A stretch of 64,000 nt of DNA, taken from the NCBI RefSeq assembly GCF_008831155.1, contig NZ_WBKB01000010.1, positions 61,536 to 125,535 of the forward strand. The letters are read 5' to 3'. Under the pieces are notes generated by a model that searched no databases, was not told where the DNA came from, and saw nothing but the letters and a program-made list of their open reading frames with translations. Made by a program: the position numbers and the translations under genes. This document shows, piece by piece, positions 6,774-56,159 of this stretch (its first letter is position 1; each line of letters opens with the position of its first letter). This DNA is from Gulosibacter chungangensis (GTDB lineage Bacteria; Actinomycetota; Actinomycetes; Actinomycetales; Microbacteriaceae).

Positions 6774-8006
6774 TTAGTCACCTGCCGCCGCGGGGCGTGA
6801 TTTCGGCACACTGTCGAGATCACGCCCCGCGGCTTTTTCCGCGCGCCGCATCAGGGCAATCGCAACGCTCGCAAGAATCGCAATCGCGGCGACCACAAAG
6901 AGCGTGCCCGGCAGCACCGCGACGCCATTGCGTTCGATCTGCACTCCTACCAGCCACGGCGTCAATGCCTGCCCGATCATGGAACCGGCGACCACCCACG
7001 CAAAGCGATGACCGGTGGCGTGCTCTGTCCCTGCCAGCCAGGTGAGCCCGTTCGGGAAAATCGGCCCGATGAAGAACCCGCACAGGGCGAAGGCGAGGAT
7101 GCCAAAATCGGGATGCAGCGCGAGTAGCAGCGAGGCTGCCATCCCCACGCAGCTTGCGATCACGAGCGCCGGGATCGCAATAACGCGCGTCAGTGCGGCA
7201 GCGGCGAAGCGCCCGACCACCATGGCGAGCCAGTAGCCCGAGGTTGCCATCGCCGCGGAATCCGCGCTCACCCCGTGCCCCTGCAGGAAGCTCGGTTCCC
7301 AACTCCCAATGCCCGATTGCACCCCAAAGTGGGTCACATAGAGCGCCACGAATGCGGTGATAATCGCGGGGCCGAACCCGAGTCGCAGCTTGGTCTTGCG
7401 AGGAGCGTCGTGACGTTCCTCGGATGCTGCTTCTGCATCCACCGGAGTCGGCCGCGGCTGCAGGCCGCGCATAGTCAGCAGAGCCACAAAGACTGCCAGC
7501 CCGGCGGCGAGGAACACGTAGGGATACGAGCCCACCCCGATGACCGAGAGCACCGCCGGAGAAATCACGGTACCGATGCCGAAACAGCCGTGGGCCACGT
7601 TCACCAAGGCGGGGCCGCGCTTGCCAGTACCCATAATGAGCAGCTGCGTAATCAGCACGTCAATGCCACCGAGCCCAAACCCGGCGACCGTGGCGGCGGC
7701 AAGAAACAGCGGCCAGGTCGGCGCGAGCGCGAGCCCGATTGATCCGATCACCATCAGCCCGAGCGCCAATTGCATCGTGAGGCGGTTGCCAAGTCGCGGC
7801 AGCACCACCGGTGCCGCAAGAATTCCCAACACCGCAGCACCGGATTGAAACGCCAAACCGAGGCCGGCGATGCTCTCACTCACCCCAAAGTGGGACTGAA
7901 ACGTTGAAATCACCGGCCCGTAGGTGGCTAGTAGCAACCCGATCGAGACCATCCCAAGCAAGCAACCGAGGATCGCACTCGGGCGGAAGAGCGTAGGTGA
8001 GGACAT
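6774..8006 (-). CDS. MFS transporter, 12 transmembrane segments
   Basis: A 410-residue major facilitator protein with 12 predicted hydrophobic spans. It begins LGCLLGMVSIGLLLATYG. A charged cytoplasmic loop after helix 6 (about residues 190-212, EERHDAPRKTKLR) is followed by six more spans and a short hydrophilic tail. No motif reveals the substrate. It is convergent with the homoprotocatechuate operon, so a role in aromatic uptake or efflux is possible but not shown. ATG 8006 is followed directly by a plausible signal-anchor helix; the upstream ribosome site is weak (AAG). Its last 16 codons also form the terminator of hpaD. Confidence 0.8.
   Translation of the reverse strand: MSSPTLFRPSAILGCLLGMVSIGLLLATYGPVISTFQSHFGVSESIAGLGLAFQSGAAVLGILAAPVVLPRLGNRLTMQLALGLMVIGSIGLALAPTWPLFLAAATVAGFGLGGIDVLITQLLIMGTGKRGPALVNVAHGCFGIGTVISPAVLSVIGVGSYPYVFLAAGLAVFVALLTMRGLQPRPTPVDAEAASEERHDAPRKTKLRLGFGPAIITAFVALYVTHFGVQSGIGSWEPSFLQGHGVSADSAAMATSGYWLAMVVGRFAAAALTRVIAIPALVIASCVGMAASLLLALHPDFGILAFALCGFFIGPIFPNGLTWLAGTEHATGHRFAWVVAGSMIGQALTPWLVGVQIERNGVAVLPGTLFVVAAIAILASVAIALMRRAEKAAGRDLDSVPKSRPAAAGD
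6787..6838 (+). terminator. Intrinsic terminator of the hpaG-hpaD operon, inside the convergent gene
   Basis: Fifteen-bp perfect arms (GCCGCGGGGCGTGAT at 6787-6801, its complement at 6819-6833) enclose a 17-nt loop and are followed by CTTTTTCC on the plus strand. It lies 23 bp after the hpaD stop but wholly within the last codons of the convergent MFS gene (6774-8006), so one sequence serves as terminator and as protein code. Confidence 0.8.
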
Positions 8007-16974: not shown

Positions 16975-17038
16975 GATACCACCGAAAATCTAGTCGACTA
17001 CTTTCCTGAAAGTGGCCGACTAGATTCTCGGTGGTATT
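16975..17038. repeat. 64-bp palindromic element, copy A
   Basis: Ends GATACCACCGA...TCTCGGTGGTATT and centre ACTTTC-CT-GAAAGT. Arms pair along nearly the whole 64 bp with a few mismatches. It is one of five elements of identical length in the window (others at 22819, 22915, 38853, 42988). It lies between the 5' end of cydD and the 3' end of fruA. There is no T-run, so it is not a typical intrinsic terminator. Confidence 0.85.
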
Positions 17039-17056: not shown

Positions 17057-17090
17057 AATCTCGGTGGCTAACTGCATTCTCGGTGGTATT
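17057..17090. repeat. Loose right-end fragments of the 64-bp element
   Basis: Two partial copies of the element's right end follow copy A: AATCTCGGTGGCTA (17057-17070) and CATTCTCGGTGGTATT (17075-17090), both in the same orientation and without left arms. They look like truncated or decayed copies. Confidence 0.65.
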
Positions 17091-22818: not shown

Positions 22819-22882
22819 AATACCACCCGAAGTGCAGTTGACCATGCTCCTGATCGTGGTCAACTGCACTTCGGGTGGTATT
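22819..22882. repeat. 64-bp palindromic element, copy B1 (perfect 26-bp arms)
   Basis: Left arm 22819-22844 (starts AATACCACCCGAAGTG) is fully complementary to 22857-22882 with a 12-nt loop that keeps the CCTGA core. It lies between convergent hpaI and the flavodoxin gene and may act as a bidirectional transcription end, though no T-run follows. Confidence 0.9.
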
Positions 22883-22914: not shown

Positions 22915-22978
22915 AATACCCCCGAAGGACGGTCGGCCACTTCACGCAGAGCGTGGCCGCTCGCCCTCCGGGGGTACT
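22915..22978. repeat. 64-bp palindromic element, divergent copy B2
   Basis: Same length and layout as copy B1, 32 bp after it, with altered ends (AATACCCCCGAAGG...CCGGGGGTACT) and about five mismatches between arms. The CCTGA centre is not kept (CGCAG). A diverged or decayed member of the family. Confidence 0.65.
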
Positions 22979-32376: not shown

Positions 32377-33932
32377 GCTTGGGTGCCTCGGGGGCCGGAC
32401 TGGGCTCGGCCGGTGCTGGCGATTTGGATGCCGCGGCCACCTCGGTAGCCGTCATCGGTGGTGGCGTCGCCGGGCTCGTGGCGGCGCGGCGACTCGCGCT
32501 GGCGGGCGTCGCTGTCACGGTCTTCGAGGCCTCGGATGCATTGGGCGGGATGATCCAGCCCGGTCACCTGGGCGAGCTCACGATCGACATCGGAGCCGAG
32601 GCCTTCGCGGTGCGCGGCGGTGCGGTCGAGGCGTTTATTCGCGAACTGGGGCTGGAGGATGCGCTGGTCGAGCCGCGCGCACTCGGCTCATGGACCTACG
32701 GCGCCTCGGGTGCGCATCCATCGCCCGCTGGCGGCATGCTCGGGATTCCGAGCGGACCGGATGCACCGGGGCTCGAGGCCGTCATCGGCGCTGAAGTACT
32801 TTCCGCGGTCGCAGCCGAAGCCACGTTGGATGCTTCGGTCGGGGCGGATGCGGAGTCCTTCGCCGACCTGATTCGGGCACGATTTGGTTCGCTCGTGCTG
32901 GAGCGTCTCGTCGCGCCGGTGACCCGCGGGGTGTACTCGCTGGACCCGGAATTGGTGGACCACCGAGTACTGATTCCGGGGCTCGTGGAGAAGCTCGCCG
33001 CGCACGGTTCACTGTCTGCCGTCGTATCCTCAATGCGACCGAAAGCAACGCCGGGTGCGCTCGTGCGCGGACTGCGCGGCGGGATGCACCGCTTCGTCGC
33101 CGCCCTCGTCGCTGACTGCGAGCGGCTCGGGGTTCGCTTTGAGCTGGGTACCCGCGTCACCCTTGCCGATCTCGCGCTGGTCGAGCGCCCGCATGCCGAT
33201 TTACCGGTGGCCGAGTGGCCGCGAAGCGGCCGTATCGAGGCCTCTCCCTTCGATACGCTCCGCTACTCAGGGAACGCCTTCGATACGCTCCGCTACTCAG
33301 GGAACGCCTTCGATACGCACCGCTACTCAGGGAACGGCACCGGTTCACGGGACGACTTCGACTTCGTGATTGCCACAGTCGAGTCGGCGGTCGCAGCCGG
33401 GGATGCTGCTCCCCCAGTTTCGAGCGAAGTCGTCGCGTTATTGGTCGACGCACCCGAGCTGGATGCGCATCCGCGCGGCACGGGAGTCCTCGTGTCGGAC
33501 GCAACCGACGTGGCCGCAAAAGCACTCACCCATGTCACTGCGAAGTGGGCTTGGCTCGACGAGTTGACTGCCGCCGGGCAGCACGTGATCCGACTGTCTT
33601 ATGGCCCTCGCCAGACCGATGGCCCGGCACGCAGCCTCGAACTCGACGACGCGGCGCTTGCCTCTCAGGCCCTTGCCGATGCTTCGCGCATTCTCGGCAC
33701 CGAGCTCACCGACGAGAATCTCGTCGCGCTCGCACGCCAAGAATGGCGCATGCCGATGCCAGCGGCTCGGCTTGGGCGCACCGCCCAACTCGCTAGATAC
33801 CGCGAGCGCTTCGATGCTGACCCGCGCATCCAACTCTGTGGCGCCTGGATCGACGGCACGGGACTCGCGTCCGTCCTGCCCTCCGCCGAAAACGCGGCCC
33901 AGCGCATCCTCGCGAGCCTCGGCCTCGCATAG
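32373..33932 (+). CDS. hemY: Protoporphyrinogen/coproporphyrinogen III oxidase (HemY/CgoX) with an in-frame repeat insertion
   Basis: A 519-residue FAD enzyme. The dinucleotide site is VAVIGGGVAGLVAARRLALAG, followed by the glutamate of the ribose contact (VTVFEASDALGG). Later signatures are VAPVTRGVYSLDPELVDHR and the C-terminal second FAD segment IQLCGAWIDGTGLASVLPSA. In Gram-positives this family mostly makes coproporphyrin III. At about residues 280-322 the frame contains a foreign-looking stretch including three copies of a ten-residue unit (AFDTLRYSGN), coded by the dispersed repeat at 33247-33336; it stays in frame and should form a surface loop. GTG 32373 overlaps the hemE stop. hemQ and hemH do not follow. 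Confidence 0.9.
   Translation: MSLGASGAGLGSAGAGDLDAAATSVAVIGGGVAGLVAARRLALAGVAVTVFEASDALGGMIQPGHLGELTIDIGAEAFAVRGGAVEAFIRELGLEDALVEPRALGSWTYGASGAHPSPAGGMLGIPSGPDAPGLEAVIGAEVLSAVAAEATLDASVGADAESFADLIRARFGSLVLERLVAPVTRGVYSLDPELVDHRVLIPGLVEKLAAHGSLSAVVSSMRPKATPGALVRGLRGGMHRFVAALVADCERLGVRFELGTRVTLADLALVERPHADLPVAEWPRSGRIEASPFDTLRYSGNAFDTLRYSGNAFDTHRYSGNGTGSRDDFDFVIATVESAVAAGDAAPPVSSEVVALLVDAPELDAHPRGTGVLVSDATDVAAKALTHVTAKWAWLDELTAAGQHVIRLSYGPRQTDGPARSLELDDAALASQALADASRILGTELTDENLVALARQEWRMPMPAARLGRTAQLARYRERFDADPRIQLCGAWIDGTGLASVLPSAENAAQRILASLGLA
33247..33336 (+). repeat. Three in-frame 30-bp tandem repeats inside hemY
   Basis: Units 33247-33276, 33277-33306 and 33307-33336 (start CCTTCGATACGC, end TACTCAGGGAACG) are near identical; the third has A for T in GCTCC. 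An oppositely oriented half unit (GAGTGGCCGCGAAGCGG...CGTATCGAGG, 33210-33241) precedes them. The same sequence family is intergenic elsewhere in the window. Thirty bp keeps the hemY frame. Confidence 0.9.
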
Positions 33933-33994
33933 CCATTGCCACTATCCGCTACCCGGGTCGAAATAGCGGCATGGGTAGCGGGTAACGGCAATGG
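33933..33994. repeat. 62-bp palindromic element, copy E1
   Basis: CCATTGCC-N5-CCGCTACCC on the left pairs with GGGTAGCGG-N5-GGCAATGG on the right; the five central arm bases do not pair. Centre CGAAATAGC. It begins at the hemY stop codon. A second 62-bp copy follows at 34037. Confidence 0.8.
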
Positions 33995-34036
33995 GAATGT
34001 GACCAGCACATCCTCTCGCAAGTCAACCCTCGGCAG

Positions 34037-38852: not shown

Positions 38853-38916
38853 AATACCACCGAGAATGCAAGTTACTACTTTCCTGAACGTAGTAACTTG
38901 CATTCTCGGTGGTATT
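38853..38916. repeat. 64-bp palindromic element, copy C (27-bp perfect arms)
   Basis: Left arm 38853-38879 (AATACCACCGAGAATGC...) pairs perfectly with 38890-38916 around the loop TTTCCTGAAC. A loose right end (CTCGGTGGTATT) follows at 38920-38931. It lies in the 296-bp gap between hemL and the next gene, which otherwise shows only short G/C-rich direct repeats at its start. Confidence 0.92.
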
Positions 38917-39060
38917 TGGCTCGGTGGTATTTGGCTTGGGTGTGCGCTTCTGCGGGCCTACCCGCCACGCCACCAGCGGCGGACGAGGATGTCGCTGGCA
39001 GTCGTTACGATCAGAATCACGAACAATCCGTTCGATTCTGATGGGTAAAAAGGTGATGTG

Positions 39061-42987: not shown

Positions 42988-43051
42988 GATACCACCGAGA
43001 ACGTGAGGTACCACTTTCCTGAAAGTGGTACCCCACATTCTCGGTGGTACT
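42988..43051. repeat. 64-bp palindromic element, copy D
   Basis: GATACCACCGAGAACG... with centre ACTTTC-CT-GAAAGT and right end TCTCGGTGGTACT. Arms pair with three mismatches. It fills the gap between the convergent membrane protein gene and the ABC transporter operon. Confidence 0.88.
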
Positions 43052-56070: not shown

Positions 56071-56097
56071 CGAGTGATCGCGATCCGTGCGGAAGAT

Positions 56098-56133
56098 TGC
56101 GGGGCTGGTGGATGCGCATCCACCAGCCCCGCA
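56098..56133. terminator. Perfect 36-bp palindrome between convergent genes
   Basis: TGCGGGGCTGGTGGATGC is followed at once by its exact complement (18-bp arms, no loop); the stem extends by GA/TC outside one G-T pair. It lies between the convergent ligM-like and gntR genes and probably ends transcription from both sides. Confidence 0.75.
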
Positions 56134-56159
56134 GTCTCACAGACGTGAGCCGCTTTGGG

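Follow-up and report, generated by a model that had tools for sequence, protein, structure and literature searches.

A dispersed family of 64-bp intergenic palindromes with twin boxes and a REPIN-like organization in Gulosibacter chungangensis

The DNA analysed here is a stretch of 64,000 nucleotides from Gulosibacter chungangensis (contig NZ_WBKB01000010.1, positions 61,536 to 125,535; G+C 63%), hereafter the window, in which a sequence-only reading had pointed out five palindromes of exactly 64 bp. All five are present at that length. The first (16975..17038), which like the others has no assigned strand, lies in a tandem gap whose neighbouring genes are both on the minus strand, and is adjoined by a solo half unit on the plus strand (17059..17090) with two GGTGG boxes 19 bp apart and the polarity of a right arm. 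The second (22819..22882) and the third, degenerate copy (22915..22978) occupy one common convergent gap. The fourth (38853..38916), the best palindrome of the window, stands in a tandem gap 3' of a gene for a class III aminotransferase, and its 15-bp outer end (CTCGGTGGTATTTGG) occurs twice in tandem at 38905..38934 on the plus strand. The fifth (42988..43051) lies in a further convergent gap and displays the clearest pair of TACCAC boxes, 19 bp apart. The intergenic placement near gene ends is thus upheld, while the earlier count of two copies in convergent gaps is corrected to three of the five, distributed over two such gaps, with the other two in tandem gaps. Four of the copies are the top four palindromes of the window (30, 29, 27 and 27 of 32 pairs) and the copy at 22915 is weaker (22 of 32); in four of them the arms are separated by only 2 nt. 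Folded as RNA the five reach -39.4 to -51.9 kcal/mol, 5.1 to 13.6 SD below dinucleotide shuffles, and for each of them none of 200 such shuffles folds as well. The motif CCTGA was correctly placed at positions 31-35 of four of the five copies. As for the ends said to be shared, two of the five copies have the full ATACCACCGAGAA on the left and two have TTCTCGGTGGTAT on the right; it is the shorter ATACCACC and GGTGGTA that are common to four of the five. The inner bases, described as differing completely between copies, in fact loosely follow a consensus close to TGCAGTCGACCAC. Further strong inverted repeats, outside the 64-bp family, are found in the window at 56094-56137, 33925-34002 and 6787-6833, the last of which is followed by TTTTT and resembles an ordinary terminator.

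A covariance model built from four window copies and one further copy recovered at least 15 copies in the 3.24-Mb genome, a lower bound since 150 of 415 first-look candidates were scored; both the further copies and the constancy of length expected by the sequence-only reading are thereby confirmed, as all 15 are exactly 64 bp long. They occupy 14 intergenic gaps and retain the left end ATACCACC in 11, the right end GGTGGTA in 13 and the central CCTGA in 9 cases, with pairwise identities of 0.38-0.89 (mean 0.68). Many (in the flanks of L005-L019) have CCG in front and TCG behind, and the conserved stretch may therefore extend 2-3 bp past the 64 bp. Four contigs (C2, C3, C4 and C20; 437 kb, 13% of the genome), chosen post hoc, carry 12 of the 15 copies against 2.0 expected, five of them on C2 alone; a loose match of 35 bp on contig C12 (E 0.07) was left out of the count. 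Model searches of 11 genomes of the genus gave matches in the own genome, in the sister species G003 and in G002, and true copies in two of the 11: the sister species has eight, one of which is 65 bp and the other seven 64 bp long, with ends mostly of the form TACCCCC, and the match in G002 is a different hairpin with 20-bp units. A search of the window at Rfam gathering scores returned only 5S rRNA and left the palindromes unmatched. The copy at 38853 found no match in plasmids and phages, and an exact pattern run over contigs of named genomes gave eight stretches, none of which belongs to the family on inspection by eye and several of which are terminator-like. Protein comparisons gave distant hits, the best of them at under 60% to plasmids of Tsukamurella and Arthrobacter, and together with the G+C content they point to an actinobacterium.

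Each arm carries the box TACCACC on its outer side and, 19 bp away in direct orientation, the box ACCAC on its inner side, and the whole element accordingly reads box-19-box, centre, box-19-box inverted. The bases of the two arms change in matched pairs, as had been proposed: among the five window copies 13 of 30 pairs are changed on both sides. In a gap-free alignment of 21 copies from the two species, which leaves out the degenerate copy at 22915 and the single 65-bp copy of the sister species, this rises to 21 of 30 pairs, and 87.1% of cells pair. The covariation score of this alignment (0.418; shuffles 0.200, slid versions no higher than 0.111) exceeds all 500 shuffles and all six slid controls. 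A scan for boxes in register, with pairing not required, gave 14 places in 209 kb with the correct centre length, in which 6-11 of 11 inner bases are paired; the box-only scan of the sister species gave eight copies with 5-10 of 11 paired, and one extra match with 3 of 11 that was not counted as a copy. Such matched change between the halves makes it likely that what is kept is the folded shape.

To place these elements among their neighbours we called genes with a small codon-usage script rather than a standard caller. Of the 15 own copies found, 11 lie in convergent gaps, three in tandem gaps and one in a divergent gap, and the eight copies of the sister species divide into four, three and one. 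A palindrome scan of 1.81 Mb from six genomes of the same family at a threshold of at least 22 of 30 pairs yielded 120 palindromes; the stretches of G000 (the own genome) and G003 were selected for the copies they hold, in G004, G374 and G133 a few were taken for one locus, the rest being arbitrary, and pairing is biased upward by the threshold itself, for which the box-only scan serves as control. Ten of the 120 are genic and three lie at stretch ends, and the other 107 comprise 66 in convergent, 33 in tandem and eight in divergent gaps, even though convergent gaps make up 38,139 of 199,547 gap bases (19%). In the mostly arbitrary stretches of G004, G374, G007 and G133 the figure is 44 of 73 in convergent gaps against the same 19%. 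This distribution favours the main rival explanation, namely that the palindromes are bidirectional mRNA 3'-end hairpins, either T-less terminators or protected, processed ends, serving convergent genes, with their sequence families arising by gene conversion instead of transposition. It gains from the retention of the same place, with paired changes, in several species (see below), and from a weak excess of G-U over A-C (42 to 25, p 0.05) when the 33 tandem-gap palindromes are read in the sense of the gene, although the tandem copies of the 64-bp family itself give just 12 G-U to 7 A-C. It is kept alive by Streptomyces clavuligerus, for which the available part of a published survey gives 353 structured 3' ends without a U-tract and 182 with one (PMC8269248). 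The T-less ends of GC-rich bacteria, termed HS-U-lack or I-shaped, likewise consist of a long stable hairpin that follows a gene and has no U-tract, from which the 64-bp family differs, in a comparison by description and with DNA alone on our side, in its fixed length and its boxes (PMC8269248). The absence of a strong T-run, noted earlier, holds across the genome: at least three T are found in the next eight bases at six of 30 stem ends of the own copies, and within 8 nt at three of 16 in the sister species, and the family thus lacks the U-rich tract after the stem that characterizes an intrinsic terminator. Moreover, T-run terminators occur in 14 of 58 convergent gaps with a long palindrome and in 25 of 107 without one, implying that the palindromes neither replace nor accompany them. 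A terminator also requires neither fixed length nor twin boxes, and REPs of other bacteria too are described as lying mainly between convergent or co-directional genes (PMC3733652). We consider this rival unlikely, and it is compatible with the REPIN-like origin that we favour below.

The twin boxes recur beyond the elements themselves. Extra boxes extend outward in the same polarity beside several copies (L005, L008, L010, L013, L020, L025, L026, L027 and L030), a segment of the sister species (L148:8136-8228) is a 19-bp array of 4.9 units, and half units allowing up to three mismatches occur at 14 places, ten within copies, four adjoining copies and none alone. Among the 120 palindromes of the scan, direct repeats of at least 6 nt within an arm are found at 19 bp in 21 (1.35 in shuffles) and at 20 bp in nine (1.6 in shuffles), with none at 18 or 21 bp. 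Relatives are counted repeatedly in these raw numbers, and the 110 non-genic palindromes were therefore grouped, which left 54 clusters. With repeats of at least 7 nt, four of the 54 fall at 19 bp and a fifth at 20 bp (0.15 and 0.12 expected), and besides these only single clusters at 17 bp and 27 bp; with 5 nt the excess is weaker (7 versus 1.98 at 19 bp and 3 versus 1.91 at 20 bp, but also 5 versus 2.18 at 17 bp). Of the window's own family, two of 14 scanned copies reach a 6-nt repeat and the cluster fails the majority rule of the test, its register having been read from alignments and the clearest copies. Differently spelled palindromes in sampled genomes of the family likewise show a register of 19 or 20 bp, and many of the scanned palindromes form lineage-specific families of constant length, such as seven copies of 68 bp in G004 and eight of 62 bp in G133, both aligning gap-free. 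In 400 kb from two genomes of other families in the order, a scan that here counted genic palindromes as well turned up 13; one has its repeats at 20 bp, and 19 bp is not represented. Tandem-repeat periods taken alone show no prominence of 19-20 bp in most genomes, period 20 being prominent in G133. Intergenic arrays of 20-bp units (ACCCGCCCTCGACCCGGATC and similar) with one orientation switch near one end were also observed in G133 and G374, at L205:11235-11346, L185:16205-16338 and L201:1667-1753; counted by eye, the units on the two sides of the centre number one and six inverted, two and seven, and five and two, respectively. A second alternative would regard the palindromes as arrays of sites that a DNA-binding protein, for example a nucleoid protein or gyrase, occupies where genes converge and positive supercoiling builds up. 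The near-constant 19-20 bp between boxes, their inversion at the centre, their outward extension in one polarity and the unequal arrays (e.g. L205:11235, L185:16205) would all accord with it, as would the binding of gyrase, IHF and Pol I by REPs of E. coli mentioned in a study of the Y1 transposases (PMC6006769). However, a protein reading the boxes alone leaves the pairing of the bases between them unexplained, and we deem this alternative very unlikely.

Of 398 genomes of the same family nine were matched by the model at E 0.001, of which, beyond the own species and its sister, only G280 was accepted. Over all model searches, matches in G028, G034, G039, G058, G170, G183, G187, G225 and G232 were dropped as chance or other hairpins; that in G170 has the TACCCCCG ends in common with the family, but its arms pair poorly and it was taken for coding sequence. 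A half-element pattern matched 15 of the 398, and its matches outside G000, G003, G280 and G239 were all inside predicted genes and dropped. In the genus of G280 (g50) a pattern search found 10 places in five of 16 genomes, nine of them of equal inner length, for a total of 62 bp, even though 54-64 was allowed; the tenth does not pair. Twelve copies from this genus align gap-free; 13 of the 29 pairs show changes in both arms, and the covariation score is 0.269 versus 0.142. The element lies 29 bp 3' of the same gene in G239, G280 and G418, and diverged forms occur at that gene in G419 and G059, giving an occupancy of five of the nine genomes in which the gene was found. At this gene G133 and G189 carry another palindrome in common and G374 a third, and in G317 the 330 bp examined contain no palindrome of this kind. 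Two further sites are common to G415 and G418. At the aminotransferase gene the element lies behind the gene in the own genome and before it in the sister species, which has an unrelated palindrome behind it, and in G004 an unrelated twin-box palindrome precedes the gene. Copies are thus retained at certain sites and replaced or lost at others. A third alternative holds that a replication template switch within the palindrome copies one arm onto the other in the absence of selection: nearly adjacent arms and locally duplicated units would favour it, yet at an orthologous site of G415 and G418 we see by eye one pair re-made and two broken, i.e. changes left unrepaired, and exact length, boxes, dispersal and place are all beyond its reach, so that we strongly doubt it.

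REP and REPIN elements are explained by RAYT enzymes. The sequence-only reading could name no repeat type for the palindromes and asked for a RAYT/TnpA-like gene; no such gene was detected, the own genome (about 99.7% complete) giving no match to Y1_Tnp (PF01797) at E 0.001, with five of 14 control genomes positive in the same search. A nearest named kind does nevertheless exist, namely the REPIN, for which a fixed spacer length and compensatory changes are published (PMC3116915). A comparison with this and other described elements showed that: 1) The family resembles REPs and REPINs in being dispersed and intergenic, with conserved inverted ends and a pairing middle of fixed length with compensatory changes, in forming tandem higher-order arrays and in the presence of several groups per genome (PMC3116915). 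All 15 own copies are 64 bp long with the outer boxes in register, and the 21 of 30 pairs changed on both sides have a score reached by none of 500 shuffles. 2) It differs from REPINs in lacking a detected Y1 transposase in its own genome and a GTRG tag at the foot, in its few copies (at least 15), in the direct pair of boxes that each arm holds at a 19-bp step and in its strong preference for convergent gaps. The REPIN tag, given as GT[AG]G 5' of the foot of the hairpin (PMC6006769), was found within 8 nt at none of the 46 ends of 23 copies, and the lack of a PF01797 match agrees with the sampled Actinobacteridae of that survey, in which, in the part available, subclass 1.1 is the sole representative of the Y1 family (PMC6006769). 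3) Like MITEs the elements are short and dispersed with inverted ends and no gene, but none of the 23 copies has a target duplication of more than 3 bp (flank repeats are 0-3 bp), the inner arms differ between copies in matched pairs, and the search with PF01797 brought up no parent element. 4) The BIME mosaics of E. coli consist of alternating oriented units at gene ends, and the oriented units at gene ends seen here recall them, with the difference of a single orientation switch and a unit step of 19-20 bp. As PF01797 went undetected in the own genome and the GTRG tag is absent, we file the family as REPIN-like and not as REPIN; by this analogy we hold that it works like one without being established as one.

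The above observations suggest to us, at about even odds (a probability near 0.5), that the palindromes are dispersed hairpin repeats built like REPINs, which an enzyme yet to be found likely copies in folded single-stranded form. The box pair would be what the copying or binding protein reads, since it is the conserved part and its 19-20-bp register recurs in differently spelled families. The hairpin would have to form, for copying, in the mRNA or both, as pairing persists among the variable bases that separate the boxes. Copies would survive mainly behind genes, where a hairpin might be harmless or might be useful as an mRNA 3' end. The reader of the boxes, the copying of a folded strand and the effect on mRNA are each what we infer from these patterns. 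In favour of the REPIN-like reading are the 15 own copies at unrelated places, all of 64 bp, the confinement of true copies to two of the 11 genus genomes, the matched changes and the box register, the gap-free families of other lineages (all seven copies in G004 and all eight in G133), and a turnover seen at one gap, where the palindromes of sister species differ. We count against it that no clean empty site emerged from the comparisons; the own copies are old and diverged, hence no recent spread is seen, and the retention in up to five of nine g50 genomes fits a fixed host feature equally well. A bolder extension, which we judge rather improbable, is that one machine conserved across the family makes and spreads hairpins out of any box sequence available to it: it would read two boxes 19-20 bp apart and copy them as a snapped-back strand, so that four-box palindromes and one-flip arrays particular to each lineage come to fill the ends of convergent genes, which would make it a RAYT-independent counterpart of the REPIN system. 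If true, the same design rules in the absence of a RAYT would represent a second way to make and keep REPIN-type hairpins. The 19-20-bp register shared by differently spelled families provides a measurable handle on the putative reader, and a role in mRNA 3' ends or supercoiling can be tested directly, given how enriched the elements are where genes converge.

We recognised no description of such repeats in this bacterial group in a literature search of limited coverage and terms; the RepRanger paper, in the part available, gives REP counts for three Actinomycetota under a definition of its own, which weighs against novelty (PMC12306157). A few further hairpins were observed alongside the 64-bp family. 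A G133 element gave eight weak records in plasmids. In G002 a hairpin with repeats of about 20 bp (GTCGGCGACTCTCCCGGGGC; L031:1500-1720) is styled like the window's family, and several long-palindrome families coexist within single genomes, for example at L151:6043, L151:17662 and L152:9551 in G004 and at L185:1484 in G374. One palindrome family of G374 (GATCGAGTGGTCGGAAGATGC) has constant arms and is devoid of the 19-bp boxes.
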